43,245 nucleotides of DNA from Synechococcales cyanobacterium S06. GTDB taxonomy: Bacteria > Cyanobacteriota > Cyanobacteriia > Cyanobacteriales > JAABRE01. Of the stretch, positions 5,440 through 43,245 are shown one piece after another. The notes under the pieces were generated by a model, which saw only the letters and a program-made list of their open reading frames with translations, had not been told where the DNA came from and did no database searches. Location of the stretch: assembly GCA_011391125.1 (NCBI GenBank), contig JAABRE010000044.1, positions 1 through 43,245 of the forward strand, written 5' to 3'. Made by a program: the position numbers and the translations under genes. The first letter of the stretch is position 1, and the number at the start of each line of letters is the position of its first letter.

Positions 5440-8400
5440 TCAAGTATTTTCGATCAGGTTAATTTCTTCTTCTGTTAACCCGTATAATTCATAAACCAAT
5501 AAGTCTATTTTCCTCTCTAATTCACTGGTATTTCTATTAGGATTAAAAGTTATTCTTTGAGTAACTTTTTGACAAATTATCGAGGCTAAATTTTGATTAA
5601 TAACTTTAGGTAAAGGAAAATTATTAATGTCATAAACAAGTATTTTCGGAAAACTTCCTTTAGTTGCTTTTGGTGAAGAATTAAAGTGATAAAATGTAGC
5701 AAATTTTGAGTTTAATATTCCTAATAAACATTCAAGGGATAAAATTTGTTGCTCAGGTTTAATAATATTAATGATTGCGGGATCATTATATAATTCTTCT
5801 GTGGTTAAAGCAGCAAAAATGCTAGGATTAGTAATTTCTCTAACCAATATTCTTTTACCAATAAAATATTTAGGTTGTCTAGGATTCGCTATTTGATCAC
5901 AATAATTCAGATACTCTTTACCATTCCATTTTACCTGATATTTTGTCACATCTTCCCCGTATAACCAAGGTTTATAATTATCATTTAACTTTTTATTAGA
6001 GTGGAAAATGCGATTTTTAATAATTTCTTCACTTTGATTTTTGTATTTGTCATAAGCAATCAATCCTTGACTTATTTCTGAGAATAAGTTACTTAAAGGT
6101 TGGGAATTAATTTTAATTTTAGTAATCAAATTAAGGACATCTTTTTTGAGTTTAAATAATAAGCTCCAATTTTGATTATTTTCAATGACTAAATCTTTTT
6201 CAATGTATAATAAATATCGAGAAATTAACTCTTGAAAATTTGTTATTTTATCTGTATTTTTGTAATATAAACCTTGACCATTTTTGCTTTTTATCAGATT
6301 AATAATAACATTTCTAATAGTAGCTTCTGAGAAAATATTTATATCTGTACAATCCAAAATTTCCTCAAAATTCCAGTTCTTAAATAATTCTAGTCGATAA
6401 TTTTGAGCAAAAACATTAAACAAAATCGAATTAGGAATTATATAGGAAAGTCGGCCAAATTTTCCCAGTAAGGAATGAGCTTTATTAATAAACCAATAAT
6501 AAATTTCAAAATCGGGGACTTTTCCTTCATTAATTATTAAAAAATCACGCTCTTTTTTTGTTAATGAAACTCCATAAGGTGGATTACCAATTATCACATC
6601 AAAACCGACAAAATTACCTTCATCATCTAACACTTCAGGAAACTCGAACCTCCATTCAAAAGCTTTTTGATAAATTGTTCCTGTCTCGATTTCTTCTAAT
6701 TCATTTTTTAGTTTATCAATCTCATTATTGAGTTTATTAATCTGTTTTTCCCTTTGTTTTTTCTCAGTTTTTGTCTCCTCAAATAAACTAATTTGATTCT
6801 CTAAATTATACAATTCACCTGCTAATTTTCTTAGTTTAGTTTTTTTAGGGTTACTTTCAGCTAAAGTATCTTTAAATGTCCATTTAAGATTATTAATTAA
6901 CCTAAGTAATTCCCTTTTTTCCTGTTTATTAGTAGTGTTTTTGTATGTTTTAACCGCATTTTTATAGCTTGCAAGATTTGATTGACTCTCTTTTAAAACC
7001 TTTTTTAAGTCAGAATCTAACTTGAATTTGCTGATTAATGAGTTACCACACTTAATATTAATGTCAATATTTGGTAAAGTTTGTAACATGATTCCCTCAC
7101 CCTGTGGGAGAGTGGCTGGGGGTGAGGGCAACATTCTCCCCTCACCCTGTGGGAGAGTGGCTGGGGGTGAGGGCAACATTCTCCCCTCACCCTGTGGGAG
7201 AGGGGCTGGGGGTGAGGGCAACATTCTCCCCTCACCCTGTGGGAGAGGGATATAATAAGCATTTTTTAGCAGTTCAATCCACAATCTTAATCGGCAAATT
7301 TTGACCGAATTCGGGTTAATATCCACCCCAAATAAACAGTTTTCAATAATATGTTGTTTCTCATGAAATAAGGTTTCTTGTATTCTTTGACTTTCCTTAC
7401 TTTGCGGATTATATTGAAACAAATCTCCATCATCATCGGTAATAATTAATTCATCGTTTACTACCTCAATGTCATAATCCCTTAAAGTTTTACCCTCCTT
7501 ATCTAACAGGATTTTTAACTCGCTTTTTATGGCAATTATTTCGTTTAAAGCAGAAACTAAAAAGTGACCTGAACCCACAGCTGGATCACAAATTTTGATA
7601 CTATTAATAATAGAATTAGCTTCTTTTTTGTCAGTAATTTGGTCATATAATTGGCTTAAATTTTCGCAATTCCAACCCTTAATTTCATTAAATTTGTGCA
7701 AAATTGCACGGTGAATTGTCTCTCGACACATATACATTGTAATGAAACTTGGGGTAAAAAACGAGCCATCTTGATAACCATTAATCTTCTCAAAAATTAA
7801 CCCCAAAACTGACGCATTAATTAAGGTTTTATTGTCTTCTTTTATAACCCCCCCTAACCCCCCCTTGACAAGGGGGGGAATGTCACCAAAATCATAACGA
7901 TTCAAAAACTCAAATAAATAGGACAATGAATTAATATTCCCGGTGCGTTTTTTGCCGTTTCTATCCTTTAAAACTGTGGCCGAAAATAGGGATATTTTCT
8001 CTTCAGATAAGTTACTAATGACAATAGTTTTATTCTCAATGTCAGATACTTCAAATAAACTACTGTTTAAATAGGGAATATAAGCAAAATTTCCCCTAAT
8101 ATCTTCATCTCTGTCACTATTTTTAACTGCTAAAATGCGGAAAAATAAGCTATTTAACTCTTGATAATTCCTAATTTTTTCAAGATTTAAAAATGAGTAT
8201 GTAAAGATGTTATTGTCTCTACAATTATAGTTAATTAATTGGGATTCTAATAATTTTAAAAACAAGATTCTATTAACCCAAGTTATCACTAATTCTAAAC
8301 CAAGATTAAATAATTGTTCCTCCTCAGTTTCTCCATATTCTTGGGCATTTTCTATGTTATGAAGTTTACTTAAACTCTTAAGTTGGGTAATGACATTTTC

Positions 8401-9360
8401 TAATAATGACCCTTTATTCCTGTTCGTTATTTTTTCTCGTTGAATTAATTTTTTACTACCTTGTTTAACTTCAGTTAAACCGATAATATATAACAATTCA
8501 TTGTAAAAATTTTTGTCTAAACTATTACTATCATTAACAAAAGATAACTTTAATAAATGTTCAGGAGAAAAGATTTTATAGAGGGTAATTAAGTCGCCCT
8601 CACCCCCAACCCCTCTCCCAGAGGGGGAGGGGAGTCTGGAGTCGCCCTCACCCCCAACCCCTCTCCCAGAGGGGGAGGGGAGTCTGGTTTCAATATCAAT
8701 TTCCTCCTCTCCCTTTGGTTGGTGGTGGGTAGGGGGGTGAGGGTGTAAATCAAAGTAAGTGAAAGTTAATTCATTTTCAACAAGGGCGATCGCCTTTTGA
8801 GCGATTTCTTGATAAAATAAATCAGTAGTTTTAATTGCTAAAATACGATTTTCAAAGTCGATAAATTGCTGAACTAACTGTTTATTTTGCGCAAAAAGTT
8901 TGTCAAAAATTTGTGCATCAAAGATAAACCATTGATAAATATTAGTAACAATTAAATGTTTAATTTCTAAATTATTCGCGGTGATTCTTTCCCTTAAATA
9001 ATATAATAATAATTCCTGTAATGCTTTTTGATTATGTAGGGGTGAACGGCCGTTCACCCCTACGAATTTATGAGCAGGTTTTTTAAGTTCTAAAATAACT
9101 CCTACAGGGGTGTTACCATCTTTACCATTATGAATGACAAGGTCATTTCTACCTTTTGTATTAATAAAATAATTCGGTGAATAATAGGTATTTTTGAGGA
9201 ATTCTGTTACCAAATTTTTATGAAATTCCTCGGATTCATTTCCATTAATATTAGTCAGTAGTTGCTTTAAATTTTTGCTAAAATTTTCGAGGTCATTTCT
9301 GTTAATTTTAAGCTTAAGAAATGCTTTATTTAATGATTTTTTTGGAGCAAGTTGATTCAT
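5440..9360 (-). CDS. Eco57I-like type IIG restriction-modification enzyme with repeat insertions
   Basis: 1306-residue single-chain restriction-modification protein. The N-terminus has a PD-(D/E)XK-like nuclease signature: D73 in RNDLV and E91-L-K93 in VILELKKP. The central methyltransferase has SAM motif I DPAVGSGHF (from residue 592) and catalytic NPPY (926-929), characteristic of N6-adenine methylation. Residues about 770-890 are a Lys/Glu-rich coiled coil, and the C-terminal ~300 residues are probably the target-recognition domain. Four repeat blocks sit inside the frame (residues about 100-108, 205-256, 495-504 and 704-756) without stopping it, adding low-complexity Pro/Gly/Arg segments. 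The frame is open throughout, so it may be active, but insertion close to the nuclease motif could impair cutting. No partner subunits are adjacent. Confidence 0.88.
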   Translation of the reverse strand: MNQLAPKKSLNKAFLKLKINRNDLENFSKNLKQLLTNINGNESEEFHKNLVTEFLKNTYYSPNYFINTKGRNDLVIHNGKDGNTPVGVILELKKPAHKFVGVNGRSPLHNQKALQELLLYYLRERITANNLEIKHLIVTNIYQWFIFDAQIFDKLFAQNKQLVQQFIDFENRILAIKTTDLFYQEIAQKAIALVENELTFTYFDLHPHPPTHHQPKGEEEIDIETRLPSPSGRGVGGEGDSRLPSPSGRGVGGEGDLITLYKIFSPEHLLKLSFVNDSNSLDKNFYNELLYIIGLTEVKQGSKKLIQREKITNRNKGSLLENVITQLKSLSKLHNIENAQEYGETEEEQLFNLGLELVITWVNRILFLKLLESQLINYNCRDNNIFTYSFLNLEKIRNYQELNSLFFRILAVKNSDRDEDIRGNFAYIPYLNSSLFEVSDIENKTIVISNLSEEKISLFSATVLKDRNGKKRTGNINSLSYLFEFLNRYDFGDIPPLVKGGLGGVIKEDNKTLINASVLGLIFEKINGYQDGSFFTPSFITMYMCRETIHRAILHKFNEIKGWNCENLSQLYDQITDKKEANSIINSIKICDPAVGSGHFLVSALNEIIAIKSELKILLDKEGKTLRDYDIEVVNDELIITDDDGDLFQYNPQSKESQRIQETLFHEKQHIIENCLFGVDINPNSVKICRLRLWIELLKNAYYIPLPQGEGRMLPSPPAPLPQGEGRMLPSPPATLPQGEGRMLPSPPATLPQGEGIMLQTLPNIDINIKCGNSLISKFKLDSDLKKVLKESQSNLASYKNAVKTYKNTTNKQEKRELLRLINNLKWTFKDTLAESNPKKTKLRKLAGELYNLENQISLFEETKTEKKQREKQINKLNNEIDKLKNELEEIETGTIYQKAFEWRFEFPEVLDDEGNFVGFDVIIGNPPYGVSLTKKERDFLIINEGKVPDFEIYYWFINKAHSLLGKFGRLSYIIPNSILFNVFAQNYRLELFKNWNFEEILDCTDINIFSEATIRNVIINLIKSKNGQGLYYKNTDKITNFQELISRYLLYIEKDLVIENNQNWSLLFKLKKDVLNLITKIKINSQPLSNLFSEISQGLIAYDKYKNQSEEIIKNRIFHSNKKLNDNYKPWLYGEDVTKYQVKWNGKEYLNYCDQIANPRQPKYFIGKRILVREITNPSIFAALTTEELYNDPAIINIIKPEQQILSLECLLGILNSKFATFYHFNSSPKATKGSFPKILVYDINNFPLPKVINQNLASIICQKVTQRITFNPNRNTSELERKIDLLVYELYGLTEEEINLIENT
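7094..7250. repeat. 45-bp tandem repeat (about 3.5 copies) inside the restriction-modification gene
   Basis: Copies begin at 7094, 7139, 7184 and 7229 (the last one partial), each starting CCCTCACCCTGTGGGAGAG and containing GGGGGTGAGGG, with only a few base differences. The 45-base period equals 15 codons, so the host frame is preserved and reads as LPSPPAPLPQGEG-type repeats. Non-coding relatives sit at 15003-15050 and 17682-17720. Confidence 0.95.
7848..7878. repeat. C-rich/G-rich palindrome inside the restriction-modification gene
   Basis: A run of C with CCTAACCCCCC, then CTTGACAAG, then a run of G. It is translated in the host gene as a segment near PPLVKGGLGG. The intergenic relative at 25470-25503 has the same plan (CCTACCCCCC...CTTGGTAAGGGGGG), which shows that this is a mobile or dispersed element. 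Confidence 0.85.
8593..8746. repeat. 48-bp tandem repeat (2 copies) plus a decayed third copy inside the restriction-modification gene
   Basis: 8593-8640 and 8641-8688 are nearly identical 48-base units (16 codons), reading RLPSPSGRGVGGEGD twice. A decayed relative at about 8705-8746 still has CTCTCCCTTTGG and GGGGGGTGAGGG. This is the same repeat family as at 7094-7250, in the opposite orientation, within one gene. Confidence 0.92.
9036..9063. repeat. 28-bp perfect palindrome inside the restriction-modification gene
   Basis: GTAGGGGTGAACGG is followed at once by its exact reverse complement. It matches a palindrome that is widespread in cyanobacterial genomes. Here it lies in frame near residues 100-108, about 8 residues after the nuclease E-x-K motif. 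Confidence 0.93.
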
Positions 9361-25469: not shown

Positions 25470-25503
25470 ACCCCCCCCTACCCCCCCTTGGTAAGGGGGG
25501 AAG
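25470..25503. repeat. C-rich/G-rich palindrome
   Basis: CCCCCCCCTACCCCCC, CTTGGTAAG and GGGGGG arms in the gap before ilvD. It is the same element type as 7848-7878 inside the restriction-modification gene. Confidence 0.85.
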
Positions 25504-27586: not shown

Positions 27587-27592
27587 AATTAA

Positions 27593-27853
27593 GTAGGGTG
27601 TGTTAGTGAAACGTAACGCACCAATTCGCCAAGTAAGTAGGGTGTGTTAGTGAAACGTAACGCACCCAAGGGTAACGCACCAATTCGCCAAGTAAGTAGG
27701 GTGTGTTAGTGATAACGCACCAATTCGCCAAGTAAGTAGGGTGTGTTAGTGAAACGTAACGCACCAATTCGCCAAGTAAGTAGGGTGTGTTAGTGAAGCG
27801 TAACACACCAAATCTCAAATGGTGCGTTACATTCTCATTAACGCACCCTACTA
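27593..27853. repeat. 40-59 bp minisatellite (5 copies) of GTAGGGTGTGTTAGTG units
   Basis: Copies of GTAGGGTGTGTTAGTG followed by (AA)ACGTAACGCACC and CAATTCGCCAAGTAA begin at 27593, 27637, 27696, 27736 and 27780. The last unit is followed by an inverted arm (GGTGCGTTAC...AACGCACCCTAC), so the whole array can fold as a long palindrome. It belongs to the GTAGGGTGNGT palindrome family and amplifies between ilvD and the VapB-like genes. Confidence 0.93.
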
Positions 27854-35533: not shown

Positions 35534-35557
35534 ATTTTTTCTGAATAATTATCAATT

Positions 35558-35640
35558 ATCAACTATCAACTATCAACTATCAACTATCAACTATCAACTA
35601 TCAACTATCAACTATCAACTATCAACTATCAACTATCAAC
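35558..35640. repeat. ATCAACT heptad array, about 12 perfect copies
   Basis: 83 bases of (ATCAACT)n between the two chemoreceptor genes. On the minus strand it reads AGTTGAT, and its first unit contains AGT-TGA, the last serine codon and the stop codon of the upstream receptor gene. It resembles the short tandemly repeated heptanucleotide (STRR) sequences known from filamentous cyanobacteria. Confidence 0.95.
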
Positions 35641-38600
35641 TAACTTTAAACTTCGCCACCATTGTTTGTAATTCTTGACTTACCGCTAATAATTCCTTAA
35701 AAGAATCTAACACTTGGGTCGCTGAAATCGAGTTTTCTTCAGCAATTTGAGCCACTTGACTCATGGTTTTACTAACTACTTTTGAATCTCTCGATTGTTC
35801 TACTGTTGTGGAAGCGATCGCCTCTACCAATTGATTAATTCGCAAAGAAGCCTCCGTAATTTGAGTTAAATTTTGTCTAGCTTCATCAACCAACCTGCTG
35901 CCTGTAACAACTTGTTCCGTACCAGCTTCCATGGCTGCTACCACCTCATTAGTTTCGGCTTGAATATCTTTAACTAACTTAGCAATTTCCGCCGTCGCTT
36001 CCGTTGATTGTCTCGATAGATTTCTGACTTCCTCCGCAACCACCGCAAAACCTCGGCCTTCCTCGCCAGCATGTGCCGCTTCAATGGAAGCATTCAAAGC
36101 CAACAAATTAGTCTGCTCAGAAAAACCGTTAATAAGATTCACCACCTTAGAAATTTTCTGGGAAGACTCCCCTAACCGTTTCACTTTTTTCGCCGTTTCC
36201 GCCACGGTTTCGCGAATGGTGATAATTCCTTGCACCGTTCTGTTCATTGCTTCATCACCCAAGGCCACAATTTCCGCCGCTTCTTGCACCGCTTGTTCAG
36301 CTTCCTTGGCGTTATTGGAAATCAGGGCAATGGATTCGGTCAAAAACTCAATCCCATTTAAAGCGGCGTTAATTTGCTTAGTTTGTCGAATAGCCCGTTT
36401 CGACAAAGATTGAATATAAGCATCATTAGTATTCGTAGTTTGAGCCATTTCCGAAGCAGATTTTTGCACCAGATTAACGATTTTACGGAGACTTTCGATG
36501 GTTGAGTTATAGGAATCAGCCACCGTGCCAATTTCATCCTCAGTAACTTGGGCGCGAATAGTCAAATCTCCTCGACTGACAGGATCAACTTGAATTAATA
36601 ATTCTAAGGCCCGTCGTTGTAGGGTTTCCTTCTCCTGTCTTTGTTGCTCTTCCGATCGCATTTGCCTGTCTAATAAATCATTGCGATCGAGGGCAAAACC
36701 AACCTGAGTGGCAATCTGGGAAAATAGGTCAATTTCCCCCTGTTGCCAGTTGCGAAAATCCGAACATTGGTGCGCGATAAATAAACCCATTAACTCATTA
36801 TTAACAATAATCGGGGCCACCAAATTGGCCTTGACTCCAAAAGGTTCTAATTGTTGTAAATGACACTTAGTCAAACCAGCTTGAAAAATATTTTCCGTTG
36901 CTTTGACTCGACCTTCCTTATATTTTTCCACATATTTATCGGCCATACAAGGATCATAAATTTTGGCATTTAAAGAAACAGGCCAACCAGAACCCACCGA
37001 CTCAGAAATAATCATACCCTGCCAATTTTCGTCAAAAGTATAAACAATTACTCTGTCTGTTGCCAAAGCCCTCCTAGTTTGATCAACCGCTAAACCAATA
37101 ATTTCGTGATAATTTTCACACCGACTAATCGCAATACTAATATCCTTTAAAATACCTGCGCGACGAGCTTCCTGACGCAATAATTCCTCATTATTTTCTT
37201 GGGTAATGACCATTTGGTTTAACTCTTGAGTGAGAACACCAATTTCGTCCGTGCGTTCACTTGCTTTCATACGCAACCCAGCTTCGCCTGCGCCAATTTT
37301 GCGGGCGAAAACCGCCAAATCTTGCACTGGTTTCGCAAAATTACTAGCAATACGAGTGGAAAAAACAATGGCGAGGAAAGCAATCACCACCCCAATACCA
37401 TAACCAGTGAACAATAAAATTCCTCTAGCTTGGTCTAGGGAAGTGGTTGGTTCACCAACATAAGCAATACCAATCGGTTTAGCATTTTCATCGAGTTGTT
37501 TTTGATGGTCATAAATGGGAGCATAACCAGTAAAATAATTAGTACCGACAATATTGGCCTCACCAAGAAAATGCTCTCCTTGATTCAAAACCCTGTCCGC
37601 GACTTCGCGAGAAACCCTGGTTCCGATCGCCCTAGTTTCCTGATCAGAATATGGTACATTAGTAGAAATGCGCCAATCTTGGGCAAAAATTGTCGCCGTG
37701 GAAATCTTATTTTTGGTTTTAAGATTGTCAACTATTTCATAATTACGATTAATTAAAGTACCGAGAATTACGGTACCAACGACCTGATTATTCACCTTAA
37801 GGGGATGAACCGACATGGCGACTAAACCTACTTTTCCGCCCTCAATATCGTAGGTATTTTCGGGGTAAGGTTGTTGTGGTTCAGGTAATCCTTGATTTTT
37901 TTGTGTTCTAATACCAATATTTGCTTGTTGCGCTAAACCTAAAGGTTCTAAATCTTGGGATTTAATTAACTCATATCCTGACAACTTTTCTTGTGTATCA
38001 AGAGCATTTTTGACAATGGGAATATTCCCTAAATTAATGCCAATGGGAAGGGAAAGTATCCGCAATTGCTGTTCTTGTTCATCATCATCTTCTTCTTCAC
38101 CGTGTAAATGTCCTTCCTCGTTTTGATGTTCTTCTGGTAAAGGAGGATATTGACTAAAATCTTCGTCAATAGTTTGGATAAATTGAGCGACAGTTTGGCC
38201 TTGAGAATCGGTAATCAGATAAAAACTTTCATCGGGCTGATCTTCAAATTGATCACCTAAAAACTGTTCCAATTTGCTTTTTTGAGAGGAATCATTTGGA
38301 TCAAGTTCACGACTTTCAATAAAACTAGCAATAAGTTCGGTTTCCAAACTTAGTTCATTAATAGTTTCATCTAAAGCCGTTTCTAAAGCTACTAAATCTC
38401 GGTCTAAGAGGTCAAGTAAATAGTTTTGTGCTTGGATTTTTTCTACTTGCAAAATCCCTTGGGTTACGGCAATTACTGGTAAGGTAACACCGGCCATAAT
38501 TAATAAAGTTAACTTATTACCAAAGTTTAAATTTTGCCATTTTTCCGTAATTTTTTGCTGAAAAATGGCGAACACATTGGGTTTATTTTCGCTTAAATCT

Positions 38601-42434: not shown

Positions 42435-43097
42435 ATGAATAATTTACCTGTTAATAACCATAGTCAAAGACTCCAAGAGTTAATCAAAAAGGTTGGTATT
42501 TCTAGTTTAAAAGAATTGAGTGAGGTTTCGGGTCTTTCTGAATGGCAAATTCGACGAGTGGAATCTGGTTTATTACCTAAAATGTCGGTGGAAACTCTGA
42601 TAAAATTGTCTCATTCTTTGCAAGTTTCGGTCGATAATTTATTAAACATTTTTGTCCCTCTTTCTCCATTTTCTCAAGATTTAATTATTCCTAAATCTGA
42701 CTCTACAGAAGTTCATTCTTTTCAAGTGGAATACCAGCGTTTACAAGAAAAATTGGCCAGTTTAGAGTCTAATTTACAGGAACAATGGCAAAATTCCAGT
42801 TTGGATATTTTGGAATCTTGGTTAATTTATTGGCCAACAGCCATCGCTGCTGTGGAAAACAACCCAGCTTTACCTGCTCAAAATATTATCCCTCTGGTAA
42901 AACCTGTACAACAATTAACGGAATCTTGGGGTTTACAGGCGATCGCCTCTGTTGGCCAAGAAATCCCTTATAATCCCCAAGTTCACCAATTAATTGAGGG
43001 ATTAGCCCAAGAAGGCGACTTAGTTAAAGTGCGCAATGTGGGTTACAGGAAAGGAGAGAAGTTACATTTGAAGGTCAAAGTTAGCTTAATCAGTTGA
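42435..43097 (+). CDS. XRE-type HTH protein with coiled coil and GrpE-like C-terminus
   Basis: 220 residues. An XRE-like helix-turn-helix at about 12-68 (ELSEVSGLSEWQIRRVESGLLPKMSVETL) is followed by a coiled coil (about 95-130) and a C-terminal ~90 residues ending QEIPYNPQVHQLIEG and VRNVGYRKGEKLHLKVKV, which resemble the GrpE beta-domain in spacing. It may be a transcription regulator with a chaperone-like domain. It diverges from the PatA-type genes across 177 bases. The terminal codons ATC-AGT-TGA come from the heptad array that follows. Confidence 0.75.
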   Translation: MNNLPVNNHSQRLQELIKKVGISSLKELSEVSGLSEWQIRRVESGLLPKMSVETLIKLSHSLQVSVDNLLNIFVPLSPFSQDLIIPKSDSTEVHSFQVEYQRLQEKLASLESNLQEQWQNSSLDILESWLIYWPTAIAAVENNPALPAQNIIPLVKPVQQLTESWGLQAIASVGQEIPYNPQVHQLIEGLAQEGDLVKVRNVGYRKGEKLHLKVKVSLIS

Positions 43098-43118
43098 TAG
43101 TTGATAGTTGATAGTTGA
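43092..43118. repeat. AGTTGAT heptad array, about 4 copies
   Basis: AGTTGATAGTTGATAGTTGAT follows from the stop codon of the HTH gene and abuts the MITE at 43119. It is the same heptad as 35558-35640 on the opposite strand and the units in 21502-21557. Confidence 0.9.
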
Positions 43119-43245
43119 TATAGTGATTCCAATTAAGATTAAAACAGTTGAAAAATAGGTTCGTAGTTGCGCTTTAGCGCTTCTTAGGACTAAAGTCCAA
43201 CAACAAACTAAAAACTTTTGTTTAATTTTTATTTGGAATTACTAT
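43119..43245 (-). mobile_element. 128-bp MITE with TATAGTRATTCCAA terminal inverted repeats (copy 2)
   Basis: Reverse complement of 15053-15180, with only a few differences over its length; the last base of the 128-base element lies just outside the window. The start TATAGTGATTCCAATT and the end TTGGAATTACTAT are inverted. It is inserted directly next to the heptad array. Confidence 0.9.

Follow-up and report, generated by a model that had tools for sequence, protein, structure and literature searches.

Why should a single restriction-modification (R-M) gene hold copies of several dispersed repeats and keep its open reading frame (ORF)? This question is raised by contig JAABRE010000044.1 of Synechococcales cyanobacterium S06, the whole 43,245 nucleotides of which (called the window here) were analyzed, and by a Type IIG enzyme gene at positions 5440-9360 carrying repeat DNA at four places (sites 1 to 4). 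The best reading is probably that R-M enzymes retain small dispersed repeats in loops that tolerate them. While repeats lodged in frame are not new, the strong bias of one family, F1, towards R-M genes is surprising.

Three repeat families in a Type IIG gene

A sequence-only reading of this DNA had described four unrelated repeat families inserted in frame in one R-M gene. The repeats are real, they all lie inside the single open frame at 5440-9360, and this frame is kept throughout the four inserts. The number of families had to be reduced to three: since the 45-bp and 48-bp tandems are reverse complements of each other (87-90% over 39-42 nt), they constitute one family (F1) present in opposite orientations, the two others being a C/G inverted repeat (F3) and a 28-bp palindrome (F4). 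The features are as follows.

5440-9360, minus strand: host gene, Type IIG restriction endonuclease-methyltransferase, 1306 amino acids (ORF, Pfam, and PADLOC)
9036-9063, strand not applicable: F4 at site 1, perfect 28-bp palindrome GTAG..CTAC, codons 100-109 (VGVNGRSPLH), in a loop after the presumed nuclease motif
8592-8687, plus strand: F1 at site 2, 48-bp tandem (2.0 units, 100% matches), codons 225-257 (RLPSPSGRGVGGEGDS twice), near the DUF7149/DUF7814 border
8703-8748, strand not applicable: possible degenerate extra F1-like unit (HPHPPTHHQPKGE, 75%, low confidence), also found in the paralogue
7848-7882, plus strand: F3 at site 3, inverted repeat rich in C/G, codons 493-505 (IPPLVKGGLGGV), in the stretch separating DUF7814 from the methyltransferase
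7094-7247, minus strand: F1 at site 4, 45-bp tandem (3.4 units, 99% matches), codons 705-756 (LPSPPAPLPQGEGRM..), inside the methyltransferase
9082-9090, minus strand: E91-L-K93, E91 and K93 being invariant in 28 sequences
7567-7587, minus strand: DPAVGSG, residues 592-598, invariant or nearly so in 28 sequences
6574-6585, minus strand: NPPY, residues 926-929, nearly invariant in 28 sequences
25471-25500, strand not applicable: intergenic copy of F3

The last of these bears out, for F3, the claim that the families also occur between genes. In the host protein, the F1 array at site 4 is flanked by KNAYY and QTLPNI.

The top PADLOC family for the host protein was REase_MTase_IIG (E 1.8e-226), and Pfam identified DUF7149 (residues 5-277), DUF7814 (278-493), an Eco57I methyltransferase (674-1010), and TaqI_C (1131-1250). 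We take E91-L-K93 to be the ExK of a PD-(D/E)xK nuclease, on the basis of which DUF7149 probably contains the nuclease, while DPAVGSG and NPPY are presumably methyltransferase motifs I and IV. Pfam, PADLOC, and the motifs together place a nuclease, an N6-adenine methyltransferase, and a specificity domain in one chain. Among PDB structures, the predicted fold matched BrxX/PglX, CamA, and M.TaqI, the whole-chain template modelling (TM) scores being low; a sequence search of the PDB gave four weak matches, all to growth hormone (E 0.3-0.4), which were treated as chance. Homologues were found in 118 plasmid records, all with less than 60% identity.

The repeats are not clean insertions. F3 adds about 7 residues net at site 3 (31 vs 24). 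At site 1, most homologues have a stretch of 25 residues and the window protein one of 27; since some palindrome-free homologues also reach 26-27 residues, F4 overwrote native sequence there. As regards single-stranded DNA folding, F4 was far more stable than shuffled sequences (z -6.5) and F3 moderately so (z -2.7).

Copies in the genome and the R-M bias of F1

The S06 genome (G000) is a draft of 4,814,433 bases in 168 contigs, in which patterns were matched at up to 3 mismatches. F1 was found 77 times, F3 36 times, and F4 90 times per strand, corresponding to 90 places, and the reversed-pattern controls gave 0 matches each. In many of the F4 copies listed, the arms covary (GTGAAC, GTTAAC, GTCAAC, and GCGAAC, each with its matching partner), so that this element is maintained as a palindrome.

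The distribution of F1 is strongly skewed: 53 of the 77 sites are in 24 R-M or DNA-methyltransferase ORFs (several being fragments at contig ends, and C89 being assigned by an ISP_coupler match just under the Pfam cut-off), 23 are outside ORFs of at least 150 amino acids, and only one is in another ORF, C135, which has a weak LpxB match. When sorted manually according to gene family, place, and frame, the copies inside ORFs fall into 16 separate places, 15 of which are in R-M genes. The genome is rich in such genes, with 51 Eco57I and 36 Type_ISP_C matches, many of them close to contig ends (e.g., L236-L275). With an R-M share of the genome of about 3.4% (our own estimate, 51 Eco57I matches of about 3.2 kb), the binomial tail for 15 of 16 places is about 1e-21, or about 1e-18 minus the window's two places, and it is still about 1e-12 at a share of 10%.

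The hosts of all three families were surveyed at the first 30 F1, 30 F3, and 15 F4 loci, using stop-to-stop frames of at least 150 codons and positions at least 25 codons from their ends. The loci inside such frames numbered 26/30, 25/30, and 4/15, respectively. Their hosts form 29 groups, near-identical paralogues being merged. R-M or DNA methyltransferase genes account for 23 of these, a count that includes the window gene and its paralogue.

F1 occurs in R-M ORFs in both orientations and in four frames (24, 12, 10, and 7 copies); a fifth frame was seen once, in a non-R-M ORF, and the sixth, which has a TGA, is absent. With five of the six frames free of stops, translation can continue across a copy in most of its orientations and phases. 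Neighboring F1 pairs located up to 100 bp apart within one ORF always had spacings divisible by three (18 of 18: 36, 42, 45, 48, and 72; the pairs include paralogous genes), which agrees with the earlier proposal that the frame is kept by the period. Outside the counted ORFs, this was true of 3/5 pairs, two of them at contig ends beside R-M genes, and 2/5 had a spacing of 65. There is an exception in the relatives, in which one ORF has two F1 units 40 bp apart (L297 of G119 and L298 of G109). The host in this case is a radical-SAM/DUF2344 protein, and its two F1 units are apparently in different frames (L298 was not itself scanned).

Across the window, periods of 65, 44/40, 7, and 7 belong to arrays that lie entirely or nearly so outside ORFs, and periods of 21, 45, 48, and 9 to arrays inside ORFs. 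An irregular 40-44-bp tandem (TAAGTAGGGTGTGTTAGTGAAACGTAACGCACC..), with periods not divisible by three, directly follows an ORF at 27590-27811. Heptamer tandems occur at 35550-35642 (TATCAAC, 13 units) and 43092-43120 (AGTTGAT, 4 units), nearly all outside ORFs; they are of the type named short tandemly repeated repetitive sequences in cyanobacteria. The window also includes a phycobilisome linker gene, which, together with relatives such as Prochloron and Dolichospermum, marks the source as a cyanobacterium.

Insert places in homologues and paralogues

In a search of the phylum, 122 of 386 genomes had a match to the host protein with an E-value no higher than 0.001, in many cases a weak one, and the alignments of the closer relatives were interrupted at query residues of about 208-254 and 704-758. 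We aligned 65 rows including the window protein, which span Prochloron, Dolichospermum, Bacteroidota, Spirochaetia, Bdellovibrionales, and others. Of the 71 homologue ORFs, 7 were shorter than 900 amino acids and were left out, as were L168 from alignment A1, L148 and L168 from A2, and L175 and L176 from both. Most homologues are devoid of the four inserts, and those from Bacteroidota, Spirochaetia, and Bdellovibrionales do not have the window's peptides, the presence of which in distant genera would have suggested original domains.

Sites 1 to 4 comprise 27, 63, 31, and 56 amino acids in the window protein, the commonest lengths in the 65 rows being 25, 29, 24, and 6-9. Site 1 has 24-27 residues in every complete row, F4 being visible there in the sequence and not in the length. 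Site 2 does not exceed 29 residues except in the window protein and its paralogue (63), L111 (43), L174 (42), L115 (33), and L142-L145 (31), and site 3 has 22-24 residues except in the window protein (31), its paralogue (37), and L174 (47). The paralogue in question, L061 (G000:C102:37355-41332), has inserts at the four corresponding places, drawn from all three families. A third paralogue, C146, aligns in the pieces 4-209, 255-703, and 759-1163. In the Prochloron homologue L174, F1-like (SPQPPLPTGEG) and F3-like (PPLKRG, PPFLRGARG) peptides were recognized by eye at sites 2 and 3. Together with the occurrence of F1 at site 4 in other genera, these peptides indicate that the insert places are used beyond the S06 genome.

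Site 4 is a recurrent landing spot for repeats. The loop from KNAYY to LETLPNI has 6-9 residues in 35/65 rows and at least 12 in 30/65 (the window protein and paralogue included), and the enlarged loops occur in cyanobacteria and Bacteroidota, many of them with different repeat types. F1 itself is read there in three ways: in the window type, which is also the frame found in other cyanobacterial genera (TSPLTPLLQGEG), as LTPNPSPTGRGE in L112, and as FPSPDGRGVRGEG in L113, the latter two being confirmed as F1 DNA. The other contents, classified by eye, include F3-like elements in L136, L154, and L173, a 21-bp tandem in L158, and further repeats or palindromes in L161, L151, L156, and L172, while L165, L167, and L174 have longer loops with no recognized repeat. 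L114 and L136, which are near-identical elsewhere (end branches 0.0075 and 0.027), have F1 and F3, respectively, at the same point. On a quick tree (421 core columns, with 25/61 inner branches below 80% support, the long branches being flagged, and L147 left out because it is the same sequence as L120), the state of site 4 changed at least 20 times, losses being counted and two unclassified long loops being taken as states.

Some of the repeats at site 4 are multi-copy in their own genomes. Tested with the repeat of each (L154, L158, L159, L172, and L173 were not), L161 gave 14 matches, two of which are 45 bp apart in opposite orientation and are probably both arms of one copy; L151 gave 7 and L156 gave 1. 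The pattern TSPLTPLLQGE was matched 30 times in six Nostocales-type genomes, 15 of these matches being at site 4 of the host gene family; in the genome of L148, there were three matches only, the tandem units at site 4.

The idea that the inserted peptides are tolerated in linkers was supported by predicted structures. The model of the window protein (residues 1-1130, 28 sequences) had a mean predicted local distance difference test score (pLDDT) of 67.8 and a predicted TM-score (pTM) of 0.42; its stretches with pLDDT <50 include 100-109, 210-252, 494-511, and 707-755, which correspond to the four insert places and are partly to be expected, since the homologues have gaps there. Site 4 is located between strands 702-705 and 757-760 in this model. 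In that of the insert-free homologue L157 (mean pLDDT 72.7, pTM 0.36), all four places are predicted loops or turns: sites 1 and 2 correspond to a coil (92-108) and a turn between two helices (211-213), both confidently modelled, while site 3 corresponds to a coil (452-465) and site 4 to a turn (659-661) that joins strands 655-658 and 662-665, both in stretches with pLDDT <50 (454-465 and 629-696). The predicted loop placement is therefore well supported at sites 1 and 2 and only suggested at sites 3 and 4.

Origin and retention of the copies

The window gene and its paralogue were compared in terms of the ratio of nonsynonymous to synonymous substitution (dN/dS). The five core segments gave values of 0.09-0.26, which indicate that the enzyme is under purifying selection, and site 4 gave 0.86. 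Synonymous differences amounted to 0.11 at sites 1 and 4 and 0.20-0.38 in the core segments, and the 48-bp array was identical at 96/96 nt.

The same pattern was found in the Type ISP-like genes of this genome, of which 21 of 40 matching ORFs were aligned and 10 to 13 were used for pair statistics; repeat peptides occur in the 21 ORFs at several shared places. Differences at fourfold-degenerate positions, in 20-codon bins, were 0.04, 0.07, and 0.09 in the F1 repeats (bins 1070, 1090, and 770) and 0.25-0.6 in most other bins, the exceptions including 0.19 at 830 and 1050, 0.16 at 1250 and 510, and the non-repeat bin at 1230 discussed below. Pro/Gly codon differences between 12 paralogues were 0.092 in the repeats vs 0.366 in all other columns (0.415 without columns 1050-1139 and 1225-1299), and were lower in the repeats in 66/66 pairs, which are not independent. 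Since the repeats are nearly frozen at silent positions, their DNA would have been copied, homogenized, or acquired recently, and the pattern fits element-level copying, homogenization, or recent arrival. In addition, C98 (L240) and C131 (L248) have different 28-bp GTAG..CTAC palindromes at one codon position between near-identical flanks, so that the element changed and its surroundings did not. In two loci, L247 (C85) and L256 (C154), an F3-type peptide (PPTPPLKGGKF) follows WEGIKWMY near the N-terminus, where the relatives read WEAKD, and the frame continues; this peptide may disturb a nuclease site.

The explanation to which we give preference, retention in tolerant loops, can be formulated as follows. 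A Type IIG gene under purifying selection would have received copies of three small dispersed repeat families, in variable loops and close to the borders of domains, positions at which additional residues would probably do no harm. F1 could be read through in most orientations and phases, and tandem growth in multiples of three would keep the frame. The copies might spread by element-level copying, either transposition or ectopic conversion, and R-M genes would keep them because their products are large, dispensable, and quick to evolve, with several domains and permissive linkers, while most other genes would be purged of such insertions.

Several observations weigh against this explanation. 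Six F3 host groups are not R-M genes (glutamate synthase, CobN, a hybrid histidine kinase, CbiG, YjeF, and a trypsin-like protein), the F3 copies in these metabolic or signalling-type hosts always having 2-3 mismatches; F4 is mainly intergenic, with 4 of 15 loci in ORFs; and further TSPLTPLLQGE matches in the six Nostocales-type genomes were located in urease alpha, a PatG-like protein, and an AAA ATPase. One context row among the loci of these genomes and of the relatives, that of L343, is void, its match not being at base 1500. In the relatives G185, G119, and G109, which have 12, 52, and 10 F1 matches, R-M genes are less strongly favored: among 30 of these 74 (L300 and L315 being counted as one gene), 12/30 loci are in ORFs and 4/9 distinct hosts are R-M genes, the others being a radical-SAM protein (in two genomes), a glycosyltransferase, a glutamate synthase, and one protein with no Pfam match. 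Some repeat-carrying R-M genes are broken, and not all of them have thus been kept functional. F1 hairpin formation is not significantly above shuffles (z about -1.1), neither F1 nor F3 was found in the fetched flanks of the 7 Y1-transposase matches in the genome (F4-like palindromes lie beside two of the seven, at 2 and 4 mismatches), and target duplication, a mark of miniature inverted-repeat transposable elements (MITEs) together with terminal inverted repeats, could not be demonstrated, the insert-free homologues being too diverged at the site. One non-repeat bin (0.055 at columns 1230-1249, upstream of the palindrome place) is as low as the repeats, both structure models are of modest quality, and the array copy numbers may be wrong in a draft of 168 contigs. 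The earlier suggestion that accessory proteins serve as repeat reservoirs is supported for a single class, the R-M enzymes, and not for accessory proteins at large. Glutamate synthase has a repeat in frame in both L087 of the S06 genome (F3) and L311 of G185 (F1), which belong to different genera, and is a possible second landing gene outside R-M.

It might be asked whether the repeats instead act as recombination handles in the linkers of 30-50 R-M paralogues, which would exchange specificity modules and thus acquire new specificities. In the Type ISP-like paralogues, the modules are mosaic. Seven loci have two same-orientation F1 copies 825-876 bp apart, which enclose the variable portion of the specificity region (columns ~776-1070). 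Among C123, C131, and C98, identity is 94-97% over the methyltransferase blocks and 58-62% over the specificity region; C113b is 98% like C123 in the part of the methyltransferase present, its specificity region is 87% like C136 and 56% like C123, and it becomes C123/C98-like again near the downstream repeat. There is also a precedent in what is described as domain movement (DOMO; PMC3077401), in which repeats flank target recognition domains and exchange between loci is thought to be repeat-mediated; DOMO differs from the present case, where the repeats are dispersed genome-wide, the R-M enzymes are single-chain, and the window gene's specificity domain is not flanked by them. The downstream F1, however, lies inside the Pfam domain Type_ISP_C (profile ~223-228 in C20) and not at its end, and the upstream switch in C113b, located by eye, is some 45 residues beyond the repeat. 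The association is confounded, since domain edges coincide with repeat places, and the silent-site dip is mostly narrow, unlike the broad trough of long conversion tracts. In the window gene, the inserts end at residue 756 and TaqI_C spans 1131-1250, and the divergence from the paralogue in residues 931-1306 (34% identity) has no repeat in it. Repeat-assisted exchange of the specificity region fits the silent-site and mosaic patterns less surely than do element-level copying, homogenization, or recent arrival, and we consider it unlikely that such handles explain the repeats.

A few ancestral insertions simply copied by duplication of R-M genes, the bias then reflecting one large gene family, would account for the fact that the window gene and its paralogue have all four inserts in common and that many Type ISP-like genes share the downstream-repeat place. 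This explanation is already disfavored, and we regard it as quite improbable: IIG, ISP-like, MmeI-like, and N6_N4 genes carry F1 in differing frames and places, the palindromes of C98 and C131 are different elements at one place, and divergence at silent sites is much greater in the flanks than in the repeats. It is scarcely credible that the inserts are original spacers which are Pro/Gly-rich and of low complexity by chance. They do encode Pro/Gly-rich linkers, and several cyanobacterial genera have F1 in one frame at site 4, but they are missing from most homologues, the same DNA is dispersed in the genome, including intergenic regions, and the repeats are read in several frames and on both strands.

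Retention in tolerant loops has parallels among known systems. According to two sources (PMC2229807, PMC10969869), Rickettsia palindromic elements (RPE) are small repeats, dispersed in the genome, that have become part of protein genes in frame, and guanylate kinase (Gmk), the one enzyme tested, remains active with its insert. The in-frame fusion is the same here; the RPE described there are 105-146 bp long, have terminal inverted repeats, belong to Rickettsia, and occur in varied, often conserved genes, whereas the window has several families with units of 28-48 bp in a cyanobacterium, F1 is mostly in R-M genes, and the same place is taken by different families. With this unit size and genome, membership of the RPE was rejected. 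The repetitive extragenic palindromes (REP) of the GTAG/CGTC type, as described in parts of PMC3733652, occur within ORFs, including many DNA repair genes, and different REP are found at about one recB site in two Xanthomonas species; those parts do not name R-M genes, which are the main hosts of F1 here. F4 was not assigned to the GTAG-REP, as it folds end to end, with GTAG paired with CTAC and no unpaired tag. GTAG-REP also have a cognate REP-associated tyrosine transposase flanked by the repeat, in which respect F4-like palindromes were observed beside two of the seven Y1-transposase matches. The words "intragenic" and "restriction" are absent from the main text of RepRanger (PMC12306157). 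Judging by titles and abstract openings in searches limited to one open library, we recognized no report of dispersed repeats concentrated in R-M genes. The small dispersed repeats of cyanobacteria studied by Elhai and colleagues are said to be short, multi-copy, and mobile-looking, and the present families are like them by description only.

These findings call for caution in annotation, since repeat DNA, and not a domain, can underlie Pro/Gly-rich stretches like LPSPSGRGVGGEG in the proteins of cyanobacteria. In the doubtful case that the repeats are shared handles kept identical at the DNA level, the repeat load of the genome would be coupled to the evolution of its defence repertoire, and the repeated occupation of site 4 in two phyla, by repeats that are unrelated, would mean that R-M enzymes offer standard landing places. 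The genome provides a natural system for studying which factors determine where in proteins selfish repeats persist, and also whether repeats help R-M enzymes to change specificity.

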